Source: a virus. From it: a stretch of 62,006 nt of DNA. Position 1 is the first letter of the stretch. Each line of letters starts with the position of its first letter. The notes beneath the pieces are model-generated. The model saw nothing but the letters and a program-made list of their open reading frames with translations. It had not been told where the DNA came from and ran no database searches. Of this stretch, positions 16,901 to 61,388 are shown piece by piece. The translations under genes were made by a program, and so were the position numbers. The stretch spans positions 1 to 62,006 of IMG/VR virus record IMGVR_UViG_3300028394_000083. One strand, written 5' to 3'.

Positions 16901-16904
16901 CAAA

Positions 16905-18797: not shown

Positions 18798-18802
18798 TAT
18801 AA

Positions 18803-18874: not shown

Positions 18875-18883
18875 CAATAAAAT

Positions 18884-18964: not shown

Positions 18965-18975
18965 CAAAAAAGATT

Positions 18976-19014
18976 AATCCGTTATATGTTGTGAAACATT
19001 TGACGGATTTTTTT
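18976..19014 (+). terminator. terminator of the first tRNA block
   Basis: AATCCGT/ACGGATT with an inner ATGTT/AACAT pairing, followed by a T-run. Confidence 0.7.
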
Positions 19015-19049
19015 ATATATTGATATATTTATATATAAAATAAAAAATT

Positions 19050-19556
19050 ATGAGAAAAATTATTAAATTAACAGAATCAGATTTAACAAGGATTGTTAAA
19101 CGTGTAATGAATGAAGGTGGGTACGCATCTATTGAAAAAGAAATGAAAACAAGCAGAATGGCATCTAAAGGGGTTACAGGTCTTTTTGGAATGATTGGTA
19201 AACTAATGATTGGGTTTGGTAAATTGAAAACAATGTTAAAAGGAGATTCATTTGAACATGCACAATATGAAATTGCTAGTGAATTAATGGATGATTGTTT
19301 AGATCTTAGAGAAACTTTGAGTATTTTAAAACAATTGGTTTCTTCATTTGAAAAAAGAGATATGAAATTACACAAAAGTGATTTTGAAGATTATGGTATT
19401 GATCTTGAATTTTTGTTAAATAGTTTAGAAAAAATCTACGATAAAGTTAGAGAGTTAGAAGAAATGGCTGAAGACGACGCAACAATAAAAAATCTTGGAG
19501 TGTTAGAAAGATCGTTGGATAAAATAGTAGATTTACTTGATAGTATTGAAGACTAA
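19050..19556 (+). CDS. cassette protein 6, probable packaged head protein
   Basis: A 168-aa protein. The cassette MRKIIKLTESDLTRIV is followed by KRVMNE (M-N-E) and GG. The body is helical, with a glycine-rich segment GVTGLFGMIGKLMIGFGKL and a coiled-coil-like C-terminus. TATTTATATATA precedes by 24 nt. First of four cassette genes in a row. Confidence 0.77.
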   Translation: MRKIIKLTESDLTRIVKRVMNEGGYASIEKEMKTSRMASKGVTGLFGMIGKLMIGFGKLKTMLKGDSFEHAQYEIASELMDDCLDLRETLSILKQLVSSFEKRDMKLHKSDFEDYGIDLEFLLNSLEKIYDKVRELEEMAEDDATIKNLGVLERSLDKIVDLLDSIED

Positions 19557-19567
19557 AATAAAATATT

Positions 19568-20023
19568 ATGAATAGAAGTTTCAGTAAAATAAGACACATC
19601 CAAGAATCCAATCTTAGATTAGAAAAAAGACTATTAAAAGAAGAGACTGATGAATTAAAAGATGATAAGTTGCAACAGATTATTGACATGGACCAAGAGT
19701 TTGATAACGACCCAACCTATAAAAGATACGAAAAGGTTTATACCAATAATAAATTAATGGGTATGATGAAAACTAGAATGGGTATGAGTTTAGATGATAT
19801 GGATGAAGACCAACTACTATCAATGCTCAAAACGGTTACATCGATGATGGGTGGTCGTGAAAAGAAAGAAAAACCTGAAATGACTCGTGAAATGATACTT
19901 AATCGTAAAGAAAGTATAATGGATATTGTAAGTCAGATAGAAGAAATGGCCGTTGAGGACAATGAGTTTGAATTGGCATCAAAATTAAGGGATTATAATA
20001 ATTTACTACAAAATTATAATTAA
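19568..20023 (+). CDS. cassette-like protein with UVR-type motif
   Basis: A 151-aa protein. The start MNRSFSKIRHIQESNLRLEK is divergent, but KRLLKE ends in L-K-E at residues 24-26. The C-terminal IEEMAVEDNEFELASKLRDY is the helical hairpin pattern of the UVR motif of UvrB/UvrC. No nuclease domain is attached. Possibly a packaged adaptor; uncertain. Confidence 0.7.
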   Translation: MNRSFSKIRHIQESNLRLEKRLLKEETDELKDDKLQQIIDMDQEFDNDPTYKRYEKVYTNNKLMGMMKTRMGMSLDDMDEDQLLSMLKTVTSMMGGREKKEKPEMTREMILNRKESIMDIVSQIEEMAVEDNEFELASKLRDYNNLLQNYN

Positions 20024-20041
20024 TAAAATAAAAACAAAATT

Positions 20042-20305
20042 ATGAATAGATTAACAGAAAGAGACTTGTCAAGAATTGTTAGACAAGTTATTAAAGAAGA
20101 CAAAGATAAAAAAACTATGAATGACATACCTGATAGTTTTTTTAAAAGTTTTTTATCAAAAACTAGTGATATAATGACAAGTGAGGAGTTTTCTGAAATT
20201 GAAGATATTTTAGGAAAGAGAGTTGGTGCTAATGGTCAAGGTATGGGAGATGTTTTTGAAAAAATATTCATAGAAGCAAGAACAAGAACAAGAAGAAGAG
20301 ATTAA
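20042..20305 (+). CDS. cassette protein 8, probable packaged head protein
   Basis: An 87-aa protein: MNRLTERDLSRIVRQVIKE, cut site I-K-E, then 68 charged residues ending in an Arg/Thr run (TRTRRRD). Function unknown. Confidence 0.75.
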   Translation: MNRLTERDLSRIVRQVIKEDKDKKTMNDIPDSFFKSFLSKTSDIMTSEEFSEIEDILGKRVGANGQGMGDVFEKIFIEARTRTRRRD

Positions 20306-20306
20306 T

Positions 20307-20645
20307 ATGAAAAAAATAGTAAGACTAACAGAATCACAATTGATTAATGTGATTGAAAAAGTAATTAAAGAAGGGTCAATAGATAAATCAACAAAAGAAA
20401 AAGATCTTGATGTTAAAATGGAAAATATTAGAGATAAGATCAAAAATTTTATTAAATCAAAAGACTGTAAAGTAAAACAAGTTGGGACCGATTTTGAGAT
20501 ACATTGCGATGGAGAACATGTAGGACAAGTTATGTTTAGAAGAAATGCAATCACAATCAAAAAAGAAGGTAATAAATTCGGAAAAGATTTTAAATTCAAC
20601 GAAATGGGTGAAATTAAATCCGAACTTTCAAAAATTATTAAATAA
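20307..20645 (+). CDS. cassette protein 9, probable packaged head protein
   Basis: A 112-aa basic protein: MKKIVRLTESQLINVIEKVIKE, then GS. The body is an alpha/beta domain (DFEIHCDGEHVGQVMFRRN). It starts 1 nt after the previous stop. Function unknown. Confidence 0.75.
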   Translation: MKKIVRLTESQLINVIEKVIKEGSIDKSTKEKDLDVKMENIRDKIKNFIKSKDCKVKQVGTDFEIHCDGEHVGQVMFRRNAITIKKEGNKFGKDFKFNEMGEIKSELSKIIK

Positions 20646-20648
20646 AAC

Positions 20649-20680
20649 TTGACACTTTTAAAAAGTATCATATATTTATA
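20649..20680 (+). promoter_or_regulatory. promoter of a short leader unit
   Basis: TTGACA at 20649-20654 and TATATTTATA at 20671-20680. The TATATTTA box lies between the host-type and late-type patterns. Confidence 0.4.
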
Positions 20681-20701
20681 ACAAAACAAATAAAAACGCA
20701 A

Positions 20702-20776
20702 ATGAAAAATTTACATATCATACTATTAGGCGGATTGGCGATAGCTGAGGATCGTTCCTTTAGGGAGGTGGTATGA
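20702..20776 (+). CDS. 24-aa leader-type ORF
   Basis: A 24-codon frame (MKNLHIILLGGLAIAEDRSF...) between a promoter and a terminator, at the head of the second tRNA block. The peptide is hydrophobic then polar. It may be a leader ORF or part of a short RNA. Confidence 0.35.
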   Translation: MKNLHIILLGGLAIAEDRSFREVV

Positions 20777-20801
20777 TAATTTAATACATAATAAATTTTG
20801 A

Positions 20802-20831
20802 AACCCATCTCCAAAAGAGGTGGGTTTTTTT
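20802..20831 (+). terminator. intrinsic terminator
   Basis: ACCCATCTC/GAGGTGGGT stem followed by seven T. Confidence 0.8.
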
Positions 20832-20846
20832 GTTCTTTGAAATATT
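20832..20846 (+). promoter_or_regulatory. boxA-like element
   Basis: GTTCTTTGAAATATT directly after the terminator, before the promoter at 20870. Confidence 0.45.
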
Positions 20847-20869
20847 GGTGGAAAAAAGTTTAAAAAAGA

Positions 20870-20901
20870 TTTGGCAGATCAAAATAGATTACATATCTTT
20901 G
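20870..20901 (+). promoter_or_regulatory. Bacteroidota-type promoter
   Basis: TTTGG at 20870 and TATCTTTG at 20894-20901, 20 nt apart. The whole stretch is nearly identical to the promoters at 21259, 22869 and 23183. Confidence 0.8.
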
Positions 20902-20917
20902 TAGAAATAAAAAACAT

Positions 20918-21271
20918 ATGGGGATTTATATCTATACTTACAAGAAAAAATTTGATAAAAACGCAACACTCAATGGTGAGAAGGTTGTTGTTGGAGTGGC
21001 GACATTTCTTTGCAAATCAACTATGGGTGGTAACTACACACCGGCTGAGAATCGTGAGATGAATAGAGCATGGAATCTTACAAAGGATTTCCAACCTGAG
21101 TATATCACGTTTGATGGTGAGAACGTATACAAAAACAACAAGTTCGGTATGTGGAATGATGGTTCAGGTTTTTATGGTGGTATTAATCACGAAAATGATT
21201 TTGTTGGGGTATTAAAAAAAATAGGTAGAAAATATGTTGTAAAAAATCTTACAAAAGTTTTGGCAAATTAA
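20918..21271 (+). CDS. hypothetical protein
   Basis: A 117-aa protein (MGIYIYTYKKKFDKNATLNG...), basic and rich in Gly, Asn and Tyr, with GMWNDGSGFYGGINHENDFVG near the end. It has its own strong promoter. Its last codons contain the next promoter. Not recognised. Confidence 0.7.
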   Translation: MGIYIYTYKKKFDKNATLNGEKVVVGVATFLCKSTMGGNYTPAENREMNRAWNLTKDFQPEYITFDGENVYKNNKFGMWNDGSGFYGGINHENDFVGVLKKIGRKYVVKNLTKVLAN

Positions 21272-21290
21272 AAGAGATTACATATCTTTG
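21259..21290 (+). promoter_or_regulatory. Bacteroidota-type promoter of second tRNA block
   Basis: TTTGG at 21259 and TATCTTTG at 21283-21290, spacer 20. It drives the boxA-like element and tRNA-fMet. Confidence 0.78.
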
Positions 21291-21311
21291 TAAGACAAAT
21301 AAGGAAAAAAG

Positions 21312-21326
21312 GTTCTTTGAAATATT
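21312..21326 (+). promoter_or_regulatory. boxA-like element
   Basis: GTTCTTTGAAATATT, 22 nt after the -7 box and upstream of tRNA-fMet: the promoter-boxA-stable RNA order of an rRNA leader. Confidence 0.55.
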
Positions 21327-21434
21327 AAAAATATGTGGTTGTAAGAAACGGGAAACTCGTAAAGTGCATTAACCTGTTGACTCAAGATGGTGAAACGAGA
21401 GTTTGAGTCAACTACTAAACTACAAATGGTATAT

Positions 21435-21506
21435 CGCAGGATAGAGCAGTGGTAGCTCGCAAGGCTCATAACCTTGAGGTCGGAGGTTCGAACCCTTCTC
21501 CTGCAA
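21435..21506 (+). tRNA. initiator tRNA-fMet(CAT)
   Basis: Acceptor CGCAGGA/TCCTGCA has the C1-A72 mismatch that marks bacterial initiators. The anticodon arm is CAAGG-CTCATAA-CCTTG, and the D-arm GAGCAGTGGTAGCTC matches the initiator pattern. Confidence 0.92.
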
Positions 21507-21577
21507 CAACTAATAGCCAACCAAGCTTTACTACGATACGGGTAATACCTGTGGGTTAGGGGTGACGGTCAGGAGAG

Positions 21578-21670
21578 ACTGACGATTACGCTGACGTACC
21601 GGTGGATGCTTATATCATCTATGCCCGTAGAGGAAAGTTTTAAACGTTGGTTCGAGTCCAACCGTCAGTA
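21578..21670 (+). tRNA. probable tRNA-Ile(TAT), oversized
   Basis: Acceptor ACTGACG/CGTCAGT (7 bp) and T-arm GTTGG-TTCGAGT-CCAAC are clear. The best anticodon arm is GGATG-CTTATAT-CATCT, giving TAT, which reads ATA. About 25 nt lie between it and the T-arm and the D-arm is irregular, so the assignment is tentative. Confidence 0.55.
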
Positions 21671-21886
21671 CGGGAGTGTATACAGTAGAGTTCAACTTGA
21701 GAAGGATGTTAACACACTTAAAAGGGGGTAACAAGAGATCAGGTCGTTTAGTAGTTTTGACGAGAAAAACTGACGTTTTGTGGAGATAGTTTGTCGGACA
21801 AACTTACACCCGTGATGTTAGTAGGTTTGATCACCTCATTCACGTAAACAGTGACGAAACAAATCCCAACGAAGTAGTCACACTTT
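21671..21886 (+). other. 216-nt spacer with hairpins, no gene seen
   Basis: Holds AGTTTGTC/GACAAACT (about 21789-21805) and a GTGAC/GTCAC pairing near 21851-21881. No ORF or tRNA is supported; it may be a processed spacer or a small structured RNA. Confidence 0.4.
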
Positions 21887-21958
21887 GCAGGTATCGTATA
21901 ATGGTTATTACTCCAGACTTCCAATTTGGAGATGAGTGTTCGATTCATTCTACCTGCA
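21887..21958 (+). tRNA. tRNA-Gly(TCC)
   Basis: Acceptor GCAGGTA/TACCTGC, anticodon arm CCAGA-CTTCCAA-TTTGG, T-arm TGAG(T)-TTCGATT pattern with ATTC. Confidence 0.87.
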
Positions 21959-22042
21959 CGATGAGTAATATCCTATTGGTTATTTTTTTTAATATTTAAC
22001 TAAAAGTTTTGGTTATAAACTGATTTTTAACTCATTTCCAGA

Positions 22043-22053
22043 TATTTATATAT
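22043..22053 (+). promoter_or_regulatory. late-promoter-like TATTTATA box
   Basis: TATTTATATAT directly precedes ATG 22054, with the first T at -11. Confidence 0.45.
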
Positions 22054-22881
22054 ATGAGATGGGATAAAAATAAAGAAGAAATTTTGAAGAAATTAATTTC
22101 AGATGGTAAAACATATAAAGAAATTAGTGAAATAATGGTTACCACATTTAGATCTATAACTAATAAATGTCTTAGGCTAGGTATTAAAAGTAAGAAAGTA
22201 GAATCTAATGAGATTGTTAATTGCAATAACTGCGGTAAAAGTTTTATATCATATAAAAGAGATAATAGAAAATTTTGTAATTATAGTTGCAGTGCTCAGT
22301 TTAATAATACCGGTAGAGTTTTATCCAATGAAACTAAAAATAAAATCACTGATGGTGTAAAAAAATATAATAAAGAAAATAACATTGAAAAAGAAAGGTC
22401 AAGTTGCTTGACTTGTGGTAAAAAAGTTAATAAACCACACAACATATATTGTTCTCGTGAATGTAAAGACAAATGCCCAATTTATAAAGAAAAATTGAGT
22501 AAAAATATGAGGGATAAATTTAAATTAAATCCTGAATTACATCCGAATAGGTTGTGTGCTGGAATTAAGGAGTCTTACCCCGAACAATTTTTTAGGGAGT
22601 TTTTAGAAAAAAATGGACTTGTAAAAAATTTAGATTTTATACAACAATATAAAATTAGTTTATATTACGTTGATTTCTTTTTTCCGAAATTGAATCTATG
22701 TGTTGAAATTGATGGTGAAAGATTTCACGATGAGAAAAATGTTAAGGAAATTTTAAGAGAAAAGTACATAAAAGAAAAATACGAACTTAAAAGATATAAA
22801 GTTAAAATTTTACTAAAAAAAGAATATGAAAATGATATTTTATATATCATTAATAATGTAAAAAAAGATTTGGTAGATTGA
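22054..22881 (+). CDS. homing endonuclease with PD-(D/E)xK/Vsr-like domain
   Basis: A 275-aa protein. An N-terminal helix-turn-helix (TYKEISEIMVTTFRSITNKC) is followed by two zinc knuckles (CNNCGKSF...CNYSC, CLTCGKK...CSREC) and a nuclease domain with YPEQFFREFLEKNG, YVDFFFPKLNLCVEIDGERFH. The E...D...ExDGxxxH set fits the EDxHD/Vsr-like type. It lies between tRNA-Gly and tRNA-Ala and is related in architecture to the gene at 17261. Confidence 0.82.
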   Translation: MRWDKNKEEILKKLISDGKTYKEISEIMVTTFRSITNKCLRLGIKSKKVESNEIVNCNNCGKSFISYKRDNRKFCNYSCSAQFNNTGRVLSNETKNKITDGVKKYNKENNIEKERSSCLTCGKKVNKPHNIYCSRECKDKCPIYKEKLSKNMRDKFKLNPELHPNRLCAGIKESYPEQFFREFLEKNGLVKNLDFIQQYKISLYYVDFFFPKLNLCVEIDGERFHDEKNVKEILREKYIKEKYELKRYKVKILLKKEYENDILYIINNVKKDLVD

Positions 22882-22900
22882 AATAAAATACCTATCTTTG
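22869..22900 (+). promoter_or_regulatory. Bacteroidota-type promoter of an RNA unit
   Basis: TTTGG at 22869 and TATCTTTG at 22893-22900, spacer 20. No ORF follows; a structured RNA does. Confidence 0.75.
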
Positions 22901-22906
22901 TATTAC

Positions 22907-23090
22907 AAATAAACCTTACAGAAGTCCGAATAGCGCGGATGAAAGGAACCTTGGCTCTCATAGGATCGCAACCTTTACGGAGAGTTTGAATGTCCCAAAG
23001 TACTCTGTTTAGGACCCTGCTCTGATGTGCACGTCAACAGGTGATGGGGAACAAACCATCAGTAAAATCCGTAAAAACGTTTTATTTTTT
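22907..23090 (+). ncRNA. unassigned structured RNA transcription unit
   Basis: This runs from a strong promoter to a T-rich tract (AACGTTTTATTTTTT). Hairpins include TCCG-AATAGCG-CGGA (22926-22940) and TGATGG-GGAACAAA-CCATCA (23042-23061). No tRNA arms or ORF are convincing. Probably a separate small RNA of about 180 nt, or the leader of tRNA-Ala. Confidence 0.5.
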
Positions 23091-23092
23091 AT

Positions 23093-23162
23093 GGGCCTGA
23101 TGCCGACGGCAGGCTGACTGATTTGCGATCAGATCATTTGGGTTCGATTCCCACAGTGTCCA
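23093..23162 (+). tRNA. probable tRNA-Ala(TGC), poor acceptor stem
   Basis: The D-stem GCC/GGC, anticodon loop TTTGCGA in a CTGA/TCAG stem and T-arm TGGG-TTCGATT-CCCA are present. The acceptor arms GGGCCTG and AGTGTCC pair only in part (two mismatches). Anticodon TGC would supply alanine. Confidence 0.55.
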
Positions 23163-23182
23163 CAAAAAAAGTTTGAAAAAGA

Positions 23183-23214
23183 TTTGGCAGATTGAAATAG
23201 ATTACATATCTTTG
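23183..23214 (+). promoter_or_regulatory. Bacteroidota-type promoter
   Basis: TTTGG at 23183 and TATCTTTG at 23207-23214, spacer 20. Confidence 0.8.
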
Positions 23215-23234
23215 TAGAACAAAAATAAAGAACT

Positions 23235-23516
23235 ATGACAAACACAGAGACAATTAAAACCGTAGGTTTAAAAATTACAAAAATTGAAGGATACGATTAT
23301 TGTTTGACAGGGTACCCAAACAAAAACACAATCCGTAATTGGGAAGATGCGTATGAGTTTGAAAGTTTTGTACAAGATGTTTTAAAGATTGAAGGTGAGT
23401 TTGATTCTGAAAGTGGTCAGTTCTACGTGTACTTCAAAACTAAACAAAAGGCAACTGCCGCTTTGAATAAGATTGAAAAACATTTCAAAAAAGTTGGTGA
23501 AATGTTAGGTTTGTAA
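23235..23516 (+). CDS. hypothetical protein
   Basis: A 93-aa protein (MTNTETIKTVGLKITKIEGY...), alpha/beta, ending in a helix NKIEKHFKKVGEMLGL. It has its own promoter; tRNA-Glu follows 8 nt after the stop. Not recognised. Confidence 0.68.
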   Translation: MTNTETIKTVGLKITKIEGYDYCLTGYPNKNTIRNWEDAYEFESFVQDVLKIEGEFDSESGQFYVYFKTKQKATAALNKIEKHFKKVGEMLGL

Positions 23517-23524
23517 GAGTTAAT

Positions 23525-23598
23525 CGCCCGTTGGACAAGTGATTGAAGTCGCTTCCCTTTCACGGAAGAGATCATGGGTTTGAATCCCATACGGGTGA
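23525..23598 (+). tRNA. tRNA-Glu(TTC)
   Basis: Acceptor CGCCCGT/ACGGGTG with one G-U, anticodon arm CTTCC-CTTTCAC-GGAAG, T-arm ATGGG-TTTGAAT-CCCAT. Confidence 0.9.
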
Positions 23599-23604
23599 CA
23601 ATGA

Positions 23605-23787
23605 GTGAGAGATACTCAAGATGTTTTTAAGTTCATACAAAACTTAACGGAGCTGGTACTATCCACGTTAAGGGGTACTCTTTGGGAATCAGGCTGGAAG
23701 ATCCTCCTCGCCCCCAAGTAAGGGTTGACTTTTAAGTGGTAAGACACGTTGGGTTTTCAAATAGAAAAACTGTGAATATCTACTCAC
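23605..23787 (+). ncRNA. unassigned structured RNA domain
   Basis: GTGAGAGATA (23605-23614) pairs with TATCT-A-CTCAC (23777-23787), closing about 160 nt that include the hairpin TTAAGTT/ACTTAA. No ORF or tRNA arms. It sits directly before tRNA-Asp. Confidence 0.45.
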
Positions 23788-23812
23788 CATTAATCTCAGG
23801 TGGGGAAACTTT

Positions 23813-23883
23813 GGTCCATTGGTGAAATATTATCATATCTGACTGTCTATCAGAAGTCCTCGGAGAGTAACCGGGATGAACCG
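23813..23883 (+). tRNA. tRNA-Asp(GTC) with unusual T-loop
   Basis: Acceptor GGTCCAT/ATGAACC (one mismatch), D-stem GTGA/TCAT, anticodon arm TCTGA-CTGTCTA-TCAGA. The T-stem CTCGG/CCGGG holds the loop AGAGTAA instead of TTCrAnY. The gene is enclosed by an 11-bp inverted repeat (23798-23808 with 23917-23927). Confidence 0.75.
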
Positions 23884-23891
23884 CACAAAGT

Positions 23892-23907
23892 GTTCTTTTA
23901 AAATATT
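23892..23907 (+). promoter_or_regulatory. boxA-like element, variant
   Basis: GTTCTTTTAAAATATT, a one-base-changed, one-base-longer form of the other copies. Confidence 0.4.
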
Positions 23908-24046
23908 GATAGTGGTTTTCCCCACCTCAACGGATGTCGACAATCCAGAGTGGATCAGGAATTCATCACCCTTTCTGCCGGGGCCCTGATAAAAGTCAGA
24001 AGAAGCAGTTAAGATTGGAGCGAGAAGGGTACTCCATCACTATCAA
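23906..24046 (+). ncRNA. unassigned structured RNA domain
   Basis: TTGATAGTG (23906-23914) pairs with CACTATCAA (24038-24046), closing a 120-nt domain that overlaps the right arm of the inverted repeat around tRNA-Asp. The two helices may be alternatives. No ORF. Confidence 0.4.
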
Positions 24047-24053
24047 AATATTT

Positions 24054-24168
24054 AGTCAGGTGGCGGAATGGTAGACGCTAAGAAAGAGATGAACTTTGTA
24101 TCTAAGTGTAAACACATGATGATACGCTAAAGCATAATCTCATACAGGTTCGAGTCCTGTCCTGACTA
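24054..24168 (+). tRNA. tRNA-Leu-like gene with about 30-nt internal excess
   Basis: Acceptor AGTCAGG/CCTGACT, D-arm GCGGAATGGTAGACGC and T-arm ACAGG-TTCGAGT-CCTGT are perfect and typical of tRNA-Leu. The 65 nt between D- and T-arms exceed the roughly 35 expected and no clean anticodon arm appears. The ends are identical to those of the gene at 33277. Confidence 0.6.
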
Positions 24169-24320
24169 CGTGGGAAAGATCTATCCCGAAAACAGAACAT
24201 GGATCACAAACACGTAAACCTAAGTACCTGTACAGCGGTGAGTAACGGGCTAAGTTATATACAATTCCTCGGAGCTGGGAGTAGAATGCTTAGGAGCGTG
24301 TTTTTAAAATATAAAAAACT
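24169..24320 (+). other. structured spacer, no gene seen
   Basis: Contains CGTGGGA/TCCCG and a domain closed by CACG/CGTG plus CCTAAG/CTTAGG (about 24213-24303). No tRNA or ORF is supported. Confidence 0.4.
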
Positions 24321-24383
24321 ATGACACCATTATTGTTTCTATTATTTATTATGTTTATCTTTTTAGTAAGAAAACGAAGATAA
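24321..24383 (+). CDS. possible 20-aa membrane peptide
   Basis: MTPLLFLLFIMFIFLVRKRR: one hydrophobic helix with a basic tail, preceded by an A-rich sequence. A plausible micro-protein, but it is too short to be sure. Confidence 0.35.
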   Translation: MTPLLFLLFIMFIFLVRKRR

Positions 24384-24394
24384 AATTATTGGTT

Positions 24395-24510
24395 GGTCAG
24401 GAGTGTAATGAGGCACGGTGCCGAGTCCCCAAGACCAATAGTCCCAGACACTTGTGGGTTCTATGGAGTCGTAAGGTTGCTCATTGTGGGTTCGACTCCC
24501 ACCCTGACAA
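24395..24510 (+). tRNA. tRNA-like gene with about 47-nt internal excess
   Basis: GTCAGG/CCTGAC acceptor pairs, D-arm GTGTAATGAGGCAC and T-arm GTGGG-TTCGACT-CCCAC are clear. The centre is about 70 nt, contains CCCA/TGGG and CCAATAG/CTATGG pairings and shows no standard anticodon arm. Identity unassigned. Confidence 0.5.
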
Positions 24511-24551
24511 CACTTGACATTATTAAATTAATGCCTTATTATTATACAAAA

Positions 24552-24624
24552 CCGGGTAGCTCAGCTGGTAGAGCAATCCTTTTTAAACAGGACGTGTCAT
24601 TGGTTCAATCCCTTTCCCGGTTTT
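24552..24624 (+). tRNA. tRNA-Lys-like gene, TTT loop
   Basis: The sequence from ACCGGGTAGCTCAGCTGGTAGAGCAATCC to GGTTCAATCCCTTTCCCGGTT has acceptor AACCGGG/CCCGGTT (24551-24557 and 24617-24623), D-arm GCTCAGCTGGTAGAGC, anticodon region ATCCT-TTTTAAA-CAGGA and T-arm with TTCAATC. Loop TTTTAAA gives TTA/TTT depending on the frame; a stem with one mismatch favours TTA at 34-36 or Lys TTT. I call the tRNA firmly but the isotype loosely. Confidence 0.7.
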
Positions 24625-25849: not shown

Positions 25850-26728
25850 TTATAGACTTAATAACATATCTATTAACTCCTGTTGAGGGAACATATCCAC
25901 CTTACCACGAATAACGTTTGTGTGTGAATACATACCTGGTGTTGAGTTGGCTTTTGCTAAATCTAAAACATCAAATCCGTCAGCCCCTTTTTCTTTTACC
26001 CATTGGACTAACCCAACTCTTGGATCTATGTTATATTTATTAGCACAATATAAAATCCAATTTCTTAATACTCTAATTTGTTCGTCTGAGTAACGGTGCC
26101 AAAATTGAAAACCTCTAAACGGTTTTGCTAATTTTACGATTTGTGATGGATCTGCTGGTGTATTTACATATGTCTTACCATTTACAATCTGACCCATATT
26201 ACATACTTCGATAGCCACAGAATTTCTGTGCATTACTGAGTTACCTGTACCGGTGTGCCATCCATATCCTCCTTCAGGAAAACATTGGATTAACTCACCA
26301 TCAAATTTTATATCTCCATTTTTAACCGATTGACCACCTAATATAAATTCTGTAGCGACATTACCTCTATTATCTCTTGCCCACATATCAGCGACTTGAT
26401 ATGGGTTTTCCCATCCTGCCGTGTGGTGTAAAAATATCCATTGTTTTTTAACTGGACCTTTAAAGTACGTGTCTTCAGGCATGTAATGTTTAATAATTTG
26501 TAATGCGGATTGTACTTCACTATTTTCAGCATTATCTGTATTTAAAATTCCCATAACCAACCACGTATTTTTTCCTACAACACCATCTACTGTTAACCCC
26601 GATTTCTTTTGAAACGATTTAACCGCAGTTTCAGTTTTTGATCCAAAGTCACCATCAACCGTGATTTTTAAAAATTCTTGTAAGGTTCTTACGGATTCCC
26701 CTTTACTCCCTTTTTTTAATACTTCCAT
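25850..26728 (-). CDS. N-acetylmuramoyl-L-alanine amidase endolysin
   Basis: A 292-aa protein. Residues about 5-60 are a PG_binding_1 domain (GSKGESVRTLQEFLKI, VDGDFGSKTETAVKSFQ, LTVDGVVGKNTW). Residues about 95-260 are an Amidase_2 domain with zinc ligands in IFLHHTAG, YGWHTGTG and the later FWHRYSDEQ, plus AIEVCNMG. It cleaves the bond between N-acetylmuramate and L-alanine. With the transpeptidase-like protein and holin it forms the lysis cassette. No signal peptide, so it depends on the holin. Confidence 0.92.
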   Translation of the reverse strand: MEVLKKGSKGESVRTLQEFLKITVDGDFGSKTETAVKSFQKKSGLTVDGVVGKNTWLVMGILNTDNAENSEVQSALQIIKHYMPEDTYFKGPVKKQWIFLHHTAGWENPYQVADMWARDNRGNVATEFILGGQSVKNGDIKFDGELIQCFPEGGYGWHTGTGNSVMHRNSVAIEVCNMGQIVNGKTYVNTPADPSQIVKLAKPFRGFQFWHRYSDEQIRVLRNWILYCANKYNIDPRVGLVQWVKEKGADGFDVLDLAKANSTPGMYSHTNVIRGKVDMFPQQELIDMLLSL

Positions 26729-35746: not shown

Positions 35747-36451
35747 ATGAAAATGAGAATCACATTTATTAGCGACACACATACTAAACACGATAAATTA
35801 AATGGTTTTTTACCTGGCGGTGATTTGTTACTGCACTCTGGAGATTTATCTAGTAGAGGTTATATCACTGAACTTGAAGCCTTCTTCAAATGGTATGATA
35901 AAATAGATAACTACGACACAAAGGCTTTCATATGTGGTAATCACGACTTTGGTTTTCAAGATGATGCTGAAAAAGTAAAAGGATTACTTACTGGTTATAA
36001 AACCATAGATTATCTACAAGATGATTGGATGGGTGTTGGTGAAGATATGGATAACATGGTTAAAATATGGGGTAGTCCTTGGCAACCTGAGTTTCATAAT
36101 TGGGCATTCAATCTTCCTCGTGGTGAGAAATTAAAAGAGAAGTGGGATATGATACCTGCTGATGTTGATATATTGGTGACTCACGGACCACCTTTTGGTA
36201 AATTGGACTACATACCGTATGATGGAAAAAATGTTGGATGTGAAGAATTATTGTTAAAAGTCCAAGAAATCAAACCTAAAATCCACGTTTTTGGGCACAT
36301 CCACGAAGGTTACGGATATGTGTTTGATGGAAATACCCACTACATCAATGCTGCGGTCTTAAACGGACGATATGAGTTCCGAAACAAACCAATAACTGTT
36401 GATTGGGATCCTGAAACAAATGAGTTGGAATTTGTTGATAATGCAGGTTAA
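35747..36451 (+). CDS. metallophosphoesterase
   Basis: A 234-aa calcineurin-like phosphoesterase. Metal ligands appear in order: ISDTHTKHD, HSGDLS, GNHDFG, VTHGPP, FGHIHEGYG. This is the full five-block set of the fold, of usual length. The substrate (nucleotide, cyclic phosphate or other) is not visible. Its 3' end overlaps the convergent gene by 4 nt. Confidence 0.92.
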   Translation: MKMRITFISDTHTKHDKLNGFLPGGDLLLHSGDLSSRGYITELEAFFKWYDKIDNYDTKAFICGNHDFGFQDDAEKVKGLLTGYKTIDYLQDDWMGVGEDMDNMVKIWGSPWQPEFHNWAFNLPRGEKLKEKWDMIPADVDILVTHGPPFGKLDYIPYDGKNVGCEELLLKVQEIKPKIHVFGHIHEGYGYVFDGNTHYINAAVLNGRYEFRNKPITVDWDPETNELEFVDNAG

Positions 36452-36906
36452 TTGATCTGCATTATTTCTATTACGTCAACACCAAACCCTTTATTCTTTA
36501 ATGTGACCTCCTGTTCGTTAGGATATAAAATGTTATTCTTTATTGATTCGTAATTATCTATTAGTTGTTTTTGTGCTTTAACTTTTATCACATAACAATT
36601 ATCACCATAACTACTACCCCTTAAAGATGTGTAGTGACTATCTAATAAATCTTTCTTATCCATCGCGAAGTGTGAACCTGGATATTGAGTATCAATTTCA
36701 TCTTTACTACCGGCAAATAATATTCTGTAAAGTAATATTGTTTCAGGTAAATTATCGTAGAAATCTGTAATGTCGTTTAGTTCATATAACGCATCATCAT
36801 TATCAAAACCCATCTCATATAAATAACCAAGTAAATTATCGGTGTTGTCCTCACTTAATCTTATATAACTCTCTTCTTTTAATATTTTTCTAATTAGTTC
36901 TTTCAT
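36448..36906 (-). CDS. cassette protein with ADP-ribosyltransferase signature (Alt-like role)
   Basis: A 152-aa protein. The cassette MKELIRKILKEES gives an L-K-E cut. The body has the R-S-E layout of arginine-type mono-ADP-ribosyltransferases: LLYR (Arg 61), a serine in PGSHFA (78) and NEQEVTL, with the E-x-E at 131-133. T4 Alt is a head-packaged, injected ADP-ribosyltransferase that carries a capsid-targeting sequence and modifies host RNA polymerase; this small gene has the same two parts. The assignment rests on motif reading, so moderate confidence. Last gene of a four-gene minus-strand operon. Confidence 0.68.
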   Translation of the reverse strand: MKELIRKILKEESYIRLSEDNTDNLLGYLYEMGFDNDDALYELNDITDFYDNLPETILLYRILFAGSKDEIDTQYPGSHFAMDKKDLLDSHYTSLRGSSYGDNCYVIKVKAQKQLIDNYESIKNNILYPNEQEVTLKNKGFGVDVIEIMQIN

Positions 36907-37367
36907 AAAAATGCTTTAACAAGTGGTTCAAAAACTTTATCTAATATATAGTCAGGTAATCTTCTAAGTGGTGCAAGATAGTCATCATACATATCATCAA
37001 GCATATTACCATCTTCGTCAAATTCAAAAACCCTTACTTTTACAAATCCCTCACTAACAGAAGTAATAAATTCCTCATAGGTATAATTATCATCTGCATT
37101 ATAACTATCAACAGGACCTAATGAAATATCATCTCCAAGTATTTCATAAAAATGTATATGACCATCAGGATCATTATCATTAACAAGTTCATTAATCAAA
37201 TCTATTTTATGTTCGTTACTATCAAAGTAATTGGGTAATATCTCATTAAAAATATCAAAACCACCAATCATTTTTATTGTTTCCAGAACTCCAAGTTCAG
37301 GAATATAATCCATTATAGTTTGTTTTAAACTTTCTTCTTTTAATATTTTTTTAATCAGTCGCTTCAT
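36903..37367 (-). CDS. cassette protein (MKxLIKKILKE type)
   Basis: 154 aa, start MKRLIKKILKEES with L-K-E. An acidic alpha/beta body (PDGHIHFYEILGDDISLG) with no recognised fold. Overlaps both neighbours by 4 nt. Confidence 0.72.
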   Translation of the reverse strand: MKRLIKKILKEESLKQTIMDYIPELGVLETIKMIGGFDIFNEILPNYFDSNEHKIDLINELVNDNDPDGHIHFYEILGDDISLGPVDSYNADDNYTYEEFITSVSEGFVKVRVFEFDEDGNMLDDMYDDYLAPLRRLPDYILDKVFEPLVKAFL

Positions 37368-37918
37368 TTTGTTTCTAACTTATCTATAATTTTTTGAACA
37401 TCATCTTTTTCCATTCTTCCGTAAAAGGTGGGTGCATTATTCATATTTATACCATTGATTTCTACTAAGGTAAGATAATTATCAGATCCTTTTTTTTCTA
37501 ATTCGGGACAATCAAAATGAGCAATCTCAAAAGAACCTGATATTTCAAAACTATCTATTATATATGCGTTGAAGAAGTTTATTTCTTCTTCTGTTAGTTT
37601 AGACTCATCGTATTTAACATTTATATCTGCCCAACTGTTAGTTCTCCATTTGTTCCAATGTTCATTTATAATATCAAAATCTAAAGTTATACAAGGACAA
37701 TTTTCAAGAGTATAATTAATATTAACTTTTCCGTTTGCACCTCCGATTCTTTTTAAAATATTTGGATTATCCTTGAATATGGTTTTTAAATTATCAACTC
37801 CTCCAACATATACTAACACAGAAAACAACCCATCTTCTTTAATCATATCATAAAGGCTTTGTTGAATGCTTTTTTTTAAACTTTCCTCTTTTAATATTTT
37901 TCTAATTATACTTTTCAT
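37364..37918 (-). CDS. cassette protein (MKxIIRKILKE type)
   Basis: 184 aa from the ATG at 37918, where the cassette MKSIIRKILKEES starts. The body includes CPCITLDFDII and EIAHFDCPELEKKGSDNYLT. Not recognised. It may be related to the 37920 product (both continue ESLK... with VKEDG/IKEDG). Confidence 0.72.
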   Translation of the reverse strand: MKSIIRKILKEESLKKSIQQSLYDMIKEDGLFSVLVYVGGVDNLKTIFKDNPNILKRIGGANGKVNINYTLENCPCITLDFDIINEHWNKWRTNSWADINVKYDESKLTEEEINFFNAYIIDSFEISGSFEIAHFDCPELEKKGSDNYLTLVEINGINMNNAPTFYGRMEKDDVQKIIDKLETK

Positions 37919-37919
37919 A

Positions 37920-38333
37920 TTACACGTAAATACCAAATAAAGTTTTTATTTCAATCCCGTGACGATCAAACAACCAATCTTTAAGTACCCGTTTTGCGCC
38001 ATTCGGACTAAGTTTAAATCCATTAAATAAAAACATAGAAAGTTCATAGTCAACCTCAACTACCTTTAGATTAAAAGGTATATCTAAAAATGGTCTACCT
38101 TCATTATTAGAAAAATAAATGGAAGTCCTACCATAATGTCTTCTTAACCCCAGCGAATCAATAAATTCCATTGGATCATTGTTAAACGCAAGTTTTGCCA
38201 AATCTTTAGGACCATTAACTAAATCTGCAGCAAATTCCCACCCATCTTCTTTAACGGTTTGTTTTAAAGTTTGTTTTAGATTTTCTAGTTTTAAACTCTC
38301 TTCTTTTAATATTTTTCTAATCAGTTGTTTCAT
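37920..38333 (-). CDS. cassette protein (MKxLIRKILKE type), first of minus-strand operon
   Basis: 137 aa from the ATG at 38333 (MKQLIRKILKEESLKLENLK). The frame is open upstream, but the cassette sets the start. Late-type TATTTATAA lies 16 nt upstream on the minus strand. Unknown fold. Confidence 0.72.
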   Translation of the reverse strand: MKQLIRKILKEESLKLENLKQTLKQTVKEDGWEFAADLVNGPKDLAKLAFNNDPMEFIDSLGLRRHYGRTSIYFSNNEGRPFLDIPFNLKVVEVDYELSMFLFNGFKLSPNGAKRVLKDWLFDRHGIEIKTLFGIYV

Positions 38334-38340
38334 AATAATA

Positions 38341-38349
38341 TTATAAATA
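38341..38349 (-). promoter_or_regulatory. late-promoter-like TATTTATAA box, minus strand
   Basis: 16 nt before the ATG of the first cassette gene of the minus operon, in the divergent region with the 38375 promoter. Confidence 0.45.
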
Positions 38350-38374
38350 GTTTGATTAAATAAAAAAATAAACA

Positions 38375-38382
38375 TATCTTTG
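38375..38382 (+). promoter_or_regulatory. TATCTTTG promoter box with short leader
   Basis: Ends 3 nt before ATG 38386; TTTG at 38351-38354 is the -33 match (20 nt away). Confidence 0.7.
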
Positions 38383-55359: not shown

Positions 55360-56394
55360 ATGGCAAACGAAACGGCTAGAGACTTATTGGACGAATTTAA
55401 TAACGGCGGATGGGACGATATAAAGGCGTATTTTGGTGATGACCTTAATACATTCTTAGATTATTTAGGTAAATACGGTTTAGATAGTGAAATTGATTAC
55501 GACAACATTGATGAAGAGTATAAAAACCTACTTCTATTATCCAATTTAGAAAAAAACCCAACAGAAACTCTAAAATATATTACCGATCAATTAATAATGG
55601 ATGTTTACCCAAGACAGGGAGGGTATTATCTTTTTTTAAGAGATAGAGACGAACTCGCAGAACTATTTAAAACATACGGAAGAGAGACTAGCCCAAGAGA
55701 TGTTGCAAAATCTATGTTAAGTGAAGATTATTGGGAACCATTTTATGATACAACATACGATGTATATAGAGACGTAATTGATGAATTGGATGAAGCAAAC
55801 AAAAATATATTATCACATTACATTATTAAAAATATCGGAAATCAAGAATTACCACTTGATGATTATGAATCCGATTTATTTAATGATTTTTCGGATGAAC
55901 AAGGAACAGAAGGTATTTTTCAAATAACAAGTGAAAATGTTATGGAATTGATTAATGACGAAGATGCGATGAATGTGTTACTAAAAGAAGACCTAAGTGA
56001 TTTAAAAAATGATCTATACTCAATTCATGATAATGCTTACAATACCGCATATTCTGATGAAATATATAAGGGAGTATGGGGAGAGCTTTCAACATACTTT
56101 AATGTGGAAGATTGGATACACGAAACAAAAGAAACTCGTGCCGGAAAAAAAGTAACACACGAATACATTAAAATTAATAATTTTTACCAAGACGTTTATG
56201 ACTTTTTATCTAATAACGCAACACCTCAATGGAGAGAACAATATTTAGGGTATAATGAAAGTTATTGTGGATTTATTGGAGGAATGATGGATGATGGTCA
56301 AAAAGAATGGTTATCTTTTAGAATACCGGACTACCCTGATTGGACAAGAACTAAGAAAAACATAAATGAAATGTTTACAGACTATGTAGGATGA
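55360..56394 (+). CDS. hypothetical virion-type protein
   Basis: 344 aa (MANETARDLLDEFNNGGWDD...), very acidic, helical. No cassette. Located inside the late block and overlapping the next cassette gene by 4 nt. Not recognised. Confidence 0.68.
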   Translation: MANETARDLLDEFNNGGWDDIKAYFGDDLNTFLDYLGKYGLDSEIDYDNIDEEYKNLLLLSNLEKNPTETLKYITDQLIMDVYPRQGGYYLFLRDRDELAELFKTYGRETSPRDVAKSMLSEDYWEPFYDTTYDVYRDVIDELDEANKNILSHYIIKNIGNQELPLDDYESDLFNDFSDEQGTEGIFQITSENVMELINDEDAMNVLLKEDLSDLKNDLYSIHDNAYNTAYSDEIYKGVWGELSTYFNVEDWIHETKETRAGKKVTHEYIKINNFYQDVYDFLSNNATPQWREQYLGYNESYCGFIGGMMDDGQKEWLSFRIPDYPDWTRTKKNINEMFTDYVG

Positions 56395-57050
56395 AAATAG
56401 TAATTACAAAAGACCAATTAAAAACAATAAGAGAGAACGCATCAAAAGAGTTTAATTGTGAGAAATGCGAACACAGTTGGGAAATTGAAACAAAAGACAA
56501 ACACCCATACCTTTGTCATATGTGTGGTTACGATTCAAATAAGAAAACACATAATTATGATGAGTTAGAAAACTTTTGGAAAAACTATAAAAAAGAAGAA
56601 GTCACCGAAAAGTGGTCAGAAAAATATAAAAAAAGTATTAACTGTAATTCACCAAAAGGATTTTCACAAAAAGCTCATTGCCAAGGTAAAAAGAAATCAC
56701 TAAAAGAATCAACTGTATTGTATGGCTACAACCTTGAAGAAATAAAAAAAGCATTAAAAATATTATCATCAGTTTCTGATACGATGGGTGATAAAATACC
56801 TTTAGATTTTAAACTATATGGGTATCACCCATATCAAAGTGAGTATGGGTTTAGACGATTAGAATTATACATTGATGTTGACAGTGAGGACGGAACTTAT
56901 AATAATTTACCAAGTGAGATGAGGTATAGATTCTCAATGGAACTACTTGATATTTTTGAGATGATGGGTCTTTACAGCCATAGATCAATGCATCCATCTT
57001 ATAATTTTTATTTTAATAAAAGATCATTAGAAGGTATAACAATTATTTGA
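56391..57050 (+). CDS. cassette protein with zinc ribbon and Cys-rich linker
   Basis: 219 aa. The cassette MKIVITKDQLKTIRE ends in I-R-E. Next come a zinc ribbon (CEKCEHSWEIE...YLCHMCGYD), a basic short unit KYKKSINCNSPKGFSQKAHC and, after LKE, a separate alpha/beta domain of about 105 residues (LYGYNLEEIKKALKILSSV...). The zinc ribbon and KSINCN units look like reusable virion modules. LKE|S at about 103-105 could be a second cut site. Confidence 0.75.
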   Translation: MKIVITKDQLKTIRENASKEFNCEKCEHSWEIETKDKHPYLCHMCGYDSNKKTHNYDELENFWKNYKKEEVTEKWSEKYKKSINCNSPKGFSQKAHCQGKKKSLKESTVLYGYNLEEIKKALKILSSVSDTMGDKIPLDFKLYGYHPYQSEYGFRRLELYIDVDSEDGTYNNLPSEMRYRFSMELLDIFEMMGLYSHRSMHPSYNFYFNKRSLEGITII

Positions 57051-57435: not shown

Positions 57436-60423
57436 ATGGAGTTTAAGAAAAAAGAATTAATGATTGAAGATAAGCGCGAGGAAGGAATCGTAAAAAAAGT
57501 CTTATCTAAAATGAAAGATATTAAAGACAGGGCAAGTTCTGAAGTAAAAGAGACTGGTGCGTTGGTTAGAATATTAACACACGCTGTTAAGTCGTATACT
57601 AAAACTAGGGGGTTTGATCTTAATGATGAAGATAGAGAATTCATAAAAGGCCAATCTGTTGACGTAGTAAGGGGATTAATATTAACGATAATCGCTATGG
57701 TACCTTTACCAATACCACTCACACCTTTTCTAATAATATTTGGTAAAAAAATTGGAATAGATTTAACACCAAAAGAACACGATATACCAAATAAAGGAAA
57801 ATCAAAAAAAGAAAAATTAGAAGAGAGTAAAAAATTAAATATTATTTTAACTGAAGATCAATATAAAAAATTAATAGTTACAAATAATAAAAACCAACAA
57901 CACAACAAAAACTATTTGAAAGAATCTACAACTGCGGTAGAAATGAATAAACCTAGTGGTAATAAATTAGAGTGGCCCAAATGTCTCGAAGGACAATACT
58001 GGGATATTGTTAAAAAAAAATGTGTTGACTATGGGTTTAGTGAGGACTTAACACCTAAAATTTATAAAGATACATATAGTGGTATAGATGATACATTTAA
58101 ACAACAACAAAAATTATTTTATCAAGAACTTAATGATAAGAAAAATTCTGATAGAATAAAAATTGCCCCATTATTAGAACAGGCAAAAGATTGGTGGAGA
58201 AAATGGTTAAACGATCCAATAACTATAAGTAAACACCAAAAACAATTTAATTTAACTGATGAACAAACTAAGGATAAATTTAAAAATTATTTAAAGGTTA
58301 TTGATAATATTGAATTAGTGGTAATGAATAGATATGGGGATAATAGAAATGATTATGCATTTATTCTAAATGCCTATATCGATTCTAATCTCAATGATTC
58401 AAGTTTGGGACATATTTTTGACAAAGAATATGATGTACTCATACAAAATGGTAGTAATGAAATCGCTGCGTGGTTAGGGGGTTTAGTTTCTACTGCTTCA
58501 GGGGGTAATAACATAAATGATTGCAGGGTTTTTGTACCATCTCCTTTAATAGGAGAAATCTCTAATTATGAACAAACTTTTGCACACGAAATACAGCATA
58601 TGTTAGAAAATAGGGTAGGACTTTTAACGTCTAAGGATGTTATGTCTAAATCATTCCCAAAGCCAATTGAAGGTGGTGTTTCAATAGACGATATAAAAAA
58701 ATCAACTAATGTGTTATATGGTGTTTCTGATTCAGATGTGGAAAATAAAGAAATAAATACCTCTGAAGAGTCAAAATTAGATTTAAATAAAGGGATAAAA
58801 GATCTTATGAAATTAACATTTTCTACTTCTAAAGGAGAGGAAAAAACCATACCAGAAAATCGTGCTAAAAATATGTTAACACAGTTATTATCCCATATGT
58901 CAGTTAATGATAAAAAAGATTATGATTGTGATCACGGAGAAAAAACGGCTAACCTTACTGAGTTAAGGAGTGAGTTAAGATTAAAACCTGGTGAAACATT
59001 AGATTGGAATGGGGTTGTTTTATCTTATTGGAATAATGGATCGGTTCCAGGAGGTAGATACATAAACACACGGCCCGTTTATAGAATTTTAGCTTGTTGG
59101 ACTTGGAATAATTTTACCCCCGATTTAAAAACTTTATTTGAAAATCTTAATAATTTTGCTATGAGTAAGGAAAATAAAGGAACAACCCCTACATCATCAT
59201 TAAATAATAAAAATTTAGAGTTATCACATTTTATAAGGAAAAATAATAAAAACTTTTTATCTGAGAGGAATAATAATTTACCGATTGAAAAAAAATTAAA
59301 AGAATCAAAATTAAATATTATTTTAACTGAAGATCAATATAAAAAACTTAATGAAATGGTGCAAAAATATGAAAGCATAATTCATAAATTATGTGTAACT
59401 CAAAAACCCGATAGCCCATTTTGTCGTTTATATAAAATGAGAGATGATTTAATAGGGGATGATAAAGTTGATTTAGATGTATCAATAGAGGTGTTAGATG
59501 ATTATTTTAGGTTTAAAAACGTTGGAATGTTTCCACGTATTGTTGAGTTAGCACTCCAAGATGAGGGTAGAACTTCAACTTATTTAAAATTAATTGCTGA
59601 CTTTATTGAAGACGATACGTTTGATAAAACAAAAACAAAAAAAGTATTAAACAAACAAAGAAACTCCGAAGAAATACCAGCGGACTTGGAAGATCTGTTA
59701 AAAATGGCAAGAACATTAGAACATCAAAAATATGAGGAGAGTTTTGTTGGTGACCATTTTGATAAACATGCAACATTTTTAAGTTTAAGGTATAGTTGTG
59801 ATGATGATATTAAGGAGACGTTATTCACGATACTAACAAAGGTGAAATCTAAAGAAAGAACACTTGATCTTGTTTTTGAGAAAATGATACAGTGTATTCA
59901 AAAATCATTAACACAAGGAATTTATTATTTAAAGTCAGATCTTGTCACTAAAAAAGATTTAGTGTTTGATGACGAAGTGATATTCCCATCAGGAACATTC
60001 TTTGAGGTTAAAAAAATGGATCCATTCATAGATAGTTATTTATCTGAGTTCTTCTCAATATTTAAACAAAGCGATAAAGCCAAATTTAAGGGAGAGTATG
60101 TTGGTATTTATAATGAACTAATACAAAGGGTATATGAATGGTTAGTAAATAGTAAGGAAGCTAAAGATTATTTAGATAAAGTAAAATTACAAATTGGTGG
60201 GATAATTTATGAGTATAACACCATAGTACCTATTGAATATATAGATCTATATTGGTCTAATAAAGGACAAAGGGGTTGTGATGAAAAACGACTATCAATA
60301 AGATTTAGAATAATGCCAGGGGTTAATGAAATAAAAACCTTTAGATTTAAAAAAGAAGACGAATTAGATGTAGTCGTTAAACCTGTAACGAATAATGAAA
60401 AAGAAAAAGTTATATGTCAATGA
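57436..60423 (+). CDS. 995-aa probable polyprotein with two internal cassettes
   Basis: Starts at ATG 57436 (MEFKKKELMIEDKREEG); the open frame upstream crosses the promoter-like box. Module 1 (1-131) has a hydrophobic stretch with GLILTIIAMVPLPIPLTPFL and GKKIGIDLTPKEHD, reminiscent of LETM1-type membrane segments. LNIILTEDQYKKL occurs at 134-146 and again at 626-638, each preceded by L-x-E-S (LEES, LKES). Module 2 contains HEIQH at 384-388 (zincin signature, FAHEIQHMLENR). Module 3 (about 640-995) is unassigned. The layout suggests one chain cut into three packaged proteins. Confidence 0.78.
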   Translation: MEFKKKELMIEDKREEGIVKKVLSKMKDIKDRASSEVKETGALVRILTHAVKSYTKTRGFDLNDEDREFIKGQSVDVVRGLILTIIAMVPLPIPLTPFLIIFGKKIGIDLTPKEHDIPNKGKSKKEKLEESKKLNIILTEDQYKKLIVTNNKNQQHNKNYLKESTTAVEMNKPSGNKLEWPKCLEGQYWDIVKKKCVDYGFSEDLTPKIYKDTYSGIDDTFKQQQKLFYQELNDKKNSDRIKIAPLLEQAKDWWRKWLNDPITISKHQKQFNLTDEQTKDKFKNYLKVIDNIELVVMNRYGDNRNDYAFILNAYIDSNLNDSSLGHIFDKEYDVLIQNGSNEIAAWLGGLVSTASGGNNINDCRVFVPSPLIGEISNYEQTFAHEIQHMLENRVGLLTSKDVMSKSFPKPIEGGVSIDDIKKSTNVLYGVSDSDVENKEINTSEESKLDLNKGIKDLMKLTFSTSKGEEKTIPENRAKNMLTQLLSHMSVNDKKDYDCDHGEKTANLTELRSELRLKPGETLDWNGVVLSYWNNGSVPGGRYINTRPVYRILACWTWNNFTPDLKTLFENLNNFAMSKENKGTTPTSSLNNKNLELSHFIRKNNKNFLSERNNNLPIEKKLKESKLNIILTEDQYKKLNEMVQKYESIIHKLCVTQKPDSPFCRLYKMRDDLIGDDKVDLDVSIEVLDDYFRFKNVGMFPRIVELALQDEGRTSTYLKLIADFIEDDTFDKTKTKKVLNKQRNSEEIPADLEDLLKMARTLEHQKYEESFVGDHFDKHATFLSLRYSCDDDIKETLFTILTKVKSKERTLDLVFEKMIQCIQKSLTQGIYYLKSDLVTKKDLVFDDEVIFPSGTFFEVKKMDPFIDSYLSEFFSIFKQSDKAKFKGEYVGIYNELIQRVYEWLVNSKEAKDYLDKVKLQIGGIIYEYNTIVPIEYIDLYWSNKGQRGCDEKRLSIRFRIMPGVNEIKTFRFKKEDELDVVVKPVTNNEKEKVICQ
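57831..57870 (+). repeat. 40-bp direct repeat, copy 1 (internal cassette)
   Basis: Identical over 40 nt to 59307-59346, 1476 nt downstream and in the same reading frame. It encodes LNIILTEDQYKK. Confidence 0.85.
59307..59346 (+). repeat. 40-bp direct repeat, copy 2 (internal cassette)
   Basis: Second copy; see 57831. Identity at third codon positions implies recent copying. Confidence 0.85.
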
Positions 60424-61388
60424 AAATAATAATAACAGAAAACCAGTATAAAAAATTAATGGAGGGATTGGCGGATGATGACGTATTTAGAGATACCATT
60501 AAAGGTTATGAATCTACAGTTATAGATTCAAGTGGACAACACTATACTTTTGATGATAAAGACCCAAAAAATCCGAAGACGTTTGTTAAATCATCTGCAG
60601 ATAAAAAAGGTGGAACACTAACAATTGGTTGGGGACATACAGGAGAAAACGCAAAACCAGGTAAAAAAATTTCAAATCAAAAGGCTGAAGAATTATTAAC
60701 AAGTGATATAACAAAAGAAGAAAATAAGGCAAAAACAATTTTTCCTAAGTATACTTCATATCCACTATATGTACAAAGAGCGTTAGTAAACGCCGTTTAT
60801 AGAGGTGAGGCTAAAAGCACATATGAATGGGTTAAGTCGATAAATTCGGGTAAATGGAGTACCGCAGCAACACAATATTTAGAAGGTTGGAACATAAATT
60901 TTTCCCAAGCAAATGACCCAAAATACAAAGGAGGGGTTGCTGACAGAATGGTAACCAATCAAAAGGCCTTTAAACAATATGCGGAAGAATTAAAAAAAGG
61001 TAAAACAACCACAACCACAACCACCACAAAAAAAGAAACCACTACAACTGAATTAAAATATGAAACAGATGAATTAAGTTTTACGTATTTAGAGTTTGAA
61101 TTAGATAATCTTACTCAAAACACTACATATAAATTACATCAATTTCCTAAATCGGACCCTGTAAATTATAGATTAGAAGTAGGACCATATCCGCCAGCAC
61201 AAAGAGAAGGTAGATATTTAGTTTTTTTTAGAAATGGAAACATTAAATGGTATAATGGCAATGAGTTCTCATCTTATGTTGGCAAATGGGGATATAACAC
61301 AGAAAATGATGATTGGAAAATAATTGGTAAAAACGGTAAAATAAGTTTATCAACAGCATTAAACCAACCAGTAAATAATTTTGCATAA
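60420..61388 (+). CDS. cassette-tagged GH24-type lysozyme
   Basis: 322 aa from ATG 60420 (MKIIITENQYKKLMEG), overlapping the polyprotein by 4 nt. L-M-E at 14-16 is the likely cut. The domain at about 20-190 is a T4-type (GH24) lysozyme: catalytic Glu in KGYES, then GGTLTIGWGHTGE, NAVYRGEA and NSGKWSTAATQYLEGW. A Thr-rich linker (KTTTTTTTTKK) leads to a C-terminal beta domain of about 110 residues. A lysozyme tagged for the head, not the tail or cytoplasm, would be unusual. Confidence 0.85.
   Translation: MKIIITENQYKKLMEGLADDDVFRDTIKGYESTVIDSSGQHYTFDDKDPKNPKTFVKSSADKKGGTLTIGWGHTGENAKPGKKISNQKAEELLTSDITKEENKAKTIFPKYTSYPLYVQRALVNAVYRGEAKSTYEWVKSINSGKWSTAATQYLEGWNINFSQANDPKYKGGVADRMVTNQKAFKQYAEELKKGKTTTTTTTTKKETTTTELKYETDELSFTYLEFELDNLTQNTTYKLHQFPKSDPVNYRLEVGPYPPAQREGRYLVFFRNGNIKWYNGNEFSSYVGKWGYNTENDDWKIIGKNGKISLSTALNQPVNNFA

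Follow-up and report, generated by a model that had tools for sequence, protein, structure and literature searches.

The question raised by this locus is why a single reading frame should carry, twice in its interior, a peptide that elsewhere in the same DNA stands at the start of genes. The window, meaning the whole stretch of DNA analyzed, comes from an uncultured virus (IMG/VR record), of which it represents a 62-kb fragment. Its open reading frame of 995 aa begins with an ATG at 57436 and stops at 60423, and a TTG 24 bases upstream of the ATG is a possible alternative start. It encodes a three-module chain, M1-tag-M2-tag-M3, and all features of it given below lie on the plus strand. The initial annotation had described a 995-aa chain with two cassette copies at residues 134 and 626 within 40-bp repeats, L-x-E-S just ahead of each copy, a membrane-type segment and an HExxH domain. 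These observations held. The peptide LNIILTEDQYKKL occurs exactly at residues 134-146 and 626-638, inside identical 40-bp repeats, and is preceded by LEES (128-131) and LKES (621-624), respectively; a hydrophobic stretch was located within M1 at residues 80-103 (57673-57744), and the HExxH motif is HEIQH at residues 384-388 (58585-58599).

The chain opens with a tag-like N-terminus, MEFKKKELMIE|D (57436-57468), a putative capsid-targeting peptide with phi-x-E at residues 9-11, for which relatives have the variants LLLSE|N and LVTE|D. M1 follows (57469-57825) and ends at the putative cut site LEE|S (residues 128-131; 57817-57828), replaced in relatives by IKES, LKES or VEES. The first 40-bp repeat (57831-57870) encodes internal tag 1 (57835-57873), which lacks a Glu at position 15; a second putative site, LKE|S (residues 161-164; 57916-57927), precedes M2 and has LITE|S as its equivalent in standalone relatives. 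M2 (57925-59250) may be a zinc metalloprotease-like domain, an inference from the HEIQH motif only; the role of its product is unknown. Beyond it lie the putative sites LSE|R (residues 608-611; 59257-59268), just past the point at which standalone M2 proteins end, and LKE|S (residues 621-624; 59296-59307). Repeat copy 2 (59307-59346) encodes internal tag 2 (59311-59349), at the end of which is the putative site LNE|M (residues 638-641; 59347-59358), a phi-x-E at tag positions 13-15. The conserved domain M3 (59356-60420; about residues 626-995) completes the chain. Only three [LIVM]xES sites exist in the 995 residues (128, 161, and 621), all of them at joints. Both internal tags open with TTA (Leu) rather than ATG, and hidden internal start codons were therefore ruled out.

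The same peptide, beginning with Met, forms the real N-terminus of genes elsewhere in the window (40436, 56391, 60420, 61393, and 61962). Of 56 nonredundant N-terminal tags, 57% have phi-x-E at residues 13-15; at later positions the average is about 3%.

Comparison with relatives reveals that M2 and M3 also exist as separate tagged genes, the ends of which match the joints of the window chain. M3 is found at 76 IMG/VR loci. It stands alone with a tag at its N-terminus in over 20 of these (e.g., MKIIISESQLIRLQE|S in L095) and is fused in about 52, as zincin-like+SOD+M3 (39), SOD+nuclease-like+M3 (5), M1+M3 (5), or SOD+M3 (3). The SOD module is a Fe/Mn superoxide dismutase according to Pfam (E about 1e-40), and in L015 it and M3 are adjoining separate genes. 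M2 is a standalone gene of 477 aa at three loci (L017-L019), including a 254-kb T4-like phage, where it carries a nonhomologous tag of a different type (MKNLxEEIQKIKKMMGIINED...LITES). The mature start of the standalone protein corresponds to the position following YLKES in the window chain, and its C-terminus coincides with the start of the NFLSE...LKES linker (J2). Modular fusion and the module boundaries are thus shown, and, of the two readings offered by the initial annotation, that of a fusion of formerly separate tagged genes is upheld. Boundaries in relatives fall at the repeats; relatives without them, the outcome that would have refuted the annotation, did not turn up.

The modules themselves remain largely unidentified. 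Neither M1 nor M2 gave a Pfam match above the cut-off; M1 found no relatives as a single-sequence query, these being recovered only with an alignment as the query. The AlphaFold model of M2 was unusable (pLDDT 36), and matches of its profile to nucleoporins in PDB (E 0.001-0.02) were rejected as chance, being weak and derived from three sequences. For M3, Pfam and PDB sequence searches returned nothing above the cut-off and GTDB genomes contained no match; a tblastn search of INPHARED phages with M2 and M3 found no match among the sequenced isolates searched. The M3 model was usable (pLDDT 78) and had no fold match in PDB and one match in BFVD, a marine phage protein. Assignment of M3 to the PD-(D/E)XK group on the basis of D210...E232-V-K234 (alignment A1 numbering) was considered and is no more than a weak guess.

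The fusion is further supported by five contigs (L054, L055, L056, L057, and L094) which, among the same neighboring genes as in the window, possess M1-tag-M3 without M2; L056 and L057 look like one virus, and in them TDES rather than phi-x-E-S precedes the tag. From these M2-less intermediates we infer that, in the window, M2 entered at the tag of an M1-tag-M3 gene and left the tag duplicated. The identity of the two 40-bp copies suggests that this was recent, and the three-module arrangement was seen in one contig only. A sixth contig, L147, has M1-NIDE|A-X-PSLNE|S-Y at the same locus. In L094 (4578-5955) the M1-tag-M3 gene is broken within M3 by a frameshift or deletion.

The neighboring tagged gene (56391-57050, plus strand) is likewise a fusion of two modules. 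SLKE|S forms the joint, where relatives carry other modules. The version in L054 has an extra module between KLNEE and IVSES, and module X of L147 also lies inside the L094 version (blastp E 2e-11). From these comparisons we conclude that modules move between chains at joints. The window gene is laid out as a tag, a zinc-ribbon-like plus KGFSQ[KR]AHC module, SLKE|S, and a second domain; its relatives are at L054:3183-4220, L094:3283-4218, and in L147, and in G005 the end of the first module closes a separate gene.

The joints are strongly enriched for one kind of site. The motif [LIV]xE[ST] occurs within 30 aa in 27 of 36 unique joints, compared with 3.1% of control windows. The shorter phi-x-E is present in 36/36; this three-residue motif is also found inside folded modules (41% of control windows), which limits its weight. 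In a separate comparison, 24 of 30 joints contained [LIV]xE[STA], where shuffled linkers gave 3.6 ± 1.8 (maximum 11 in 2000 shuffles). The joints of related chains are mutually dependent, so that nominal P-values overstate the case, yet the feature is common to at least eight types of joint. Directly ahead of the SOD domain, phi-x-E is found at the same position in 20/20 distinct sequences, a count covering both settings of the domain, after an N-terminal tag (N-terminal SOD) and after a zincin module (internal). The internal tag of the SOD-M3 chains is decayed and their linker varies in length, and L[NK]ES is kept in most of them; this is what would be expected if cutting were selected once targeting by that tag was no longer needed.

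Sites of this type have a counterpart in the capsid protein of these phages. In seven genomes, the residues of the gp23-type major capsid protein that correspond by homology to the T4 gp23 cut read [LI][LI]NE|[SA]. This motif was identified independently of the joints and is inferred by homology, the cut itself not having been observed; the joint motif matches it as [LI]NE|[SA]. Flavobacterium phage immuto, whose capsid protein places it among the nearest annotated isolates, carries the capsid site IVSE|A, and none of these tags was found in the 150 of its 160 kb that were scanned. An S77 (gp21-type) prohead protease is encoded in six related records (G002, G004, G005, G009, G011, and G018), G009 being a contig which also bears M1-tag-M3; none was detected in the window, itself a fragment. 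HExxH occurs in M2 and in the zincin-SOD-M3 chains. A protease-like module is missing from the M1-M3, SOD-M3, and SOD-NUC-M3 chains, which nevertheless keep their sites. Self-processing is therefore unlikely to be general, and a protease that acts in trans would fit these chains. A HExxH match in L054 (HEIPH at the end of M1) was judged to be chance.

In phage T4, gp21 cleaves behind a glutamate and so takes off both the propeptides of capsid proteins and the N-terminal peptides used for targeting (PMC9026906, PMC5694885), and CTS fusions get packaged and processed (PMC9026906). We consider it likely that the chains described here arose from shuffled, tagged head-cargo genes and are cut by the prohead protease. 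The ancestors of M2 and M3 would have been individual genes. Each would have carried a short tag at its N-terminus that acted like the T4 capsid-targeting sequence, a peptide of 10-22 residues which recruits a protein to the core of the prohead and which the prohead protease then cleaves off behind phi-x-E. Fusion through tag-coding DNA would have converted the old N-terminal tags to internal linkers retaining phi-x-E|S sites. The whole chain would then enter the prohead as a single polypeptide, where the gp21-type protease is predicted to cut at LEE|S (after residue 130), LKE|S (163), LSE|R (610), LKE|S (623), and LNE|M (640), yielding M1, M2, and M3 for ejection into the host. Modules, boundaries, fusion, site statistics, and the protease and capsid sites of relatives belong to the part that is shown; packaging, cutting, ejection, and module roles are inferred, no virion proteomics being available. 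The alternative offered by the initial annotation, a true polyprotein, is accordingly strongly supported by the comparison, through the protease-type sites found at joints, at N-terminal tags, and in the major capsid protein, and through the presence of a gp21-type protease, and is not shown in the absence of virion peptide data. A bolder inference, which we consider somewhat more likely than not, is that one class of T4-like jumbo phages fills the head with polyproteins, in which once-separate cargo enzymes, shuffled and joined by capsid-targeting tag cassettes, would be cut apart in the prohead by the capsid maturation protease.

The best surviving rival holds that the chains are fused, packaged, and left whole as multidomain "polyvalent" injected proteins, that they lose no more than the first N-terminal tag, and that their joint sites are relics of former N-termini. 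In its favor, the gene fusion is certain, multidomain injected proteins of phages are known (PMC5512222), and the internal tags themselves resemble relics. Against it, L[NK]ES outlasts the decayed tag in most SOD-M3 chains despite the variable linker, [LIV]xES also stands ahead of the internal tags, a placement that a relic N-terminus does not account for, and the sites persist across at least eight types of joint. We regard this rival as unlikely. Less credible still, indeed very unlikely, is that the tags have another role (e.g., host-side localization or as a translation leader) and that Glu-rich linkers merely resemble cut sites. No experiment links the tags to heads, and one tagged protein, a lysozyme, could act at lysis; however, the fixed-position phi-x-E of the tags is the same as the site that the capsid protein of these phages carries, and the motif rarely arises in shuffled joints. 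That the three-module frame is an assembly chimera formed at the 40-bp repeat, as its single contig and the exact repeat flanking M2 might suggest, is highly improbable, since the genes of both flanks match the M1-tag-M3 locus of relatives, standalone M2 has no J2 linker (NFLSERNNNLPIEKKLKES), which lies in frame here, and a 40-bp repeat is much shorter than typical short reads and the final k-mers of assemblies.

The favored reading, that of cargo chains cut by the prohead protease, builds on a known arrangement, since a targeting sequence and a prohead protease are already established in the T4 system. Three features of T4-type CTS/gp21 substrates are present, namely a short N-terminal phi-x-E peptide, an S77 protease (in relatives), and a gp23-type capsid protein with a matching site (PMC9026906). 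As with the gp21-processed proteins IPI-IPIII and Alt (PMC9026906), a short N-terminal peptide removable at phi-x-E precedes variable cargo; T4 cargo, however, is encoded by single genes with one tag each, whereas here several are joined, with internal tags and sites. The prohead-protease substrates of SPN3US and phiKZ (PMC5694885, PMC10052503) are similar in that many packaged proteins are ejected and cuts follow x-x-E, sometimes at several sites within one propeptide. Those multiple cuts strip the propeptide and do not free several cargo proteins, and the SPN3US motif is A-x-E compared with L/I-x-E here. Polyvalent proteins of phages and conjugative elements (PMC5512222) also combine several unrelated domains per delivered polypeptide, have invited the polyprotein analogy, and in some cases carry metalloprotease domains; the criterion of several disparate domains per phage protein (Iyer et al. 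2017) is met by M1, M2, and M3 and by the SOD, nuclease-like, and zincin-like modules. They were proposed to process themselves through a built-in metalloprotease, whereas several chain types here have none, and unlike them the present chains carry head-protease sites and repeated targeting tags. P1 DarB (PMC9024508) is comparable in being a large injected protein with a packaging signal at its N-terminus, but internal tags or joint cut sites are not reported in the relevant sections. The literature searched contained no multi-cargo chains in which internal tags recur and interdomain sites are conserved, and the string RLTESDL was also absent from it. What would be new is cargo packaged as one chain and then cut in the head, to our knowledge not a loading route of any bacterial virus.

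If this is true, tailed phages possess a polyprotein strategy of their own, in which one targeting event delivers several cargo proteins at a fixed ratio, and the part played by viral proteases in RNA viruses falls, for cargo, to the head protease. The combination of a tag and a phi-x-E|S joint provides a sequence-only means of flagging likely head cargo among the unknown proteins of uncultured jumbo phages; the joints also show how cargo is shuffled and suggest a natural template for packing several foreign proteins into phage heads. Among the candidates so flagged is Fe/Mn superoxide dismutase, which is predicted, without virion proteomics, to be head cargo of T4-like phages. Its loci, with phi-x-E directly ahead of the domain, are L015:4452-5999, L120-L124, and L058-L093. 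In L009, L005, and L015 the M3/SOD genes lie among structural genes, between helicase-like and head-tail adaptor-like genes; the placement of the M3 gene in the window differs, not being among structural genes.

Other tagged genes were noted in the window. Adjoining the chain is a phage lysozyme domain (PF00959) with an N-terminal tag (60420-61385), distinct from the peptidoglycan-binding-like gene at 25850-26728. A second tag type, MKRIIRLTESDLARIVRRVIKEN, opens genes at 12354-14750 and 19050-19556; its DNA is nearly identical across five neighboring genes with different bodies, as if, possibly, it were spreading as a DNA cassette. A third, short type, MK(x)(L/I)I(R/K)KILKEES, is found in four adjacent genes on the minus strand (36448-38375). 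About 20 tRNA genes are located at 9714-24624, some of them among tagged genes.
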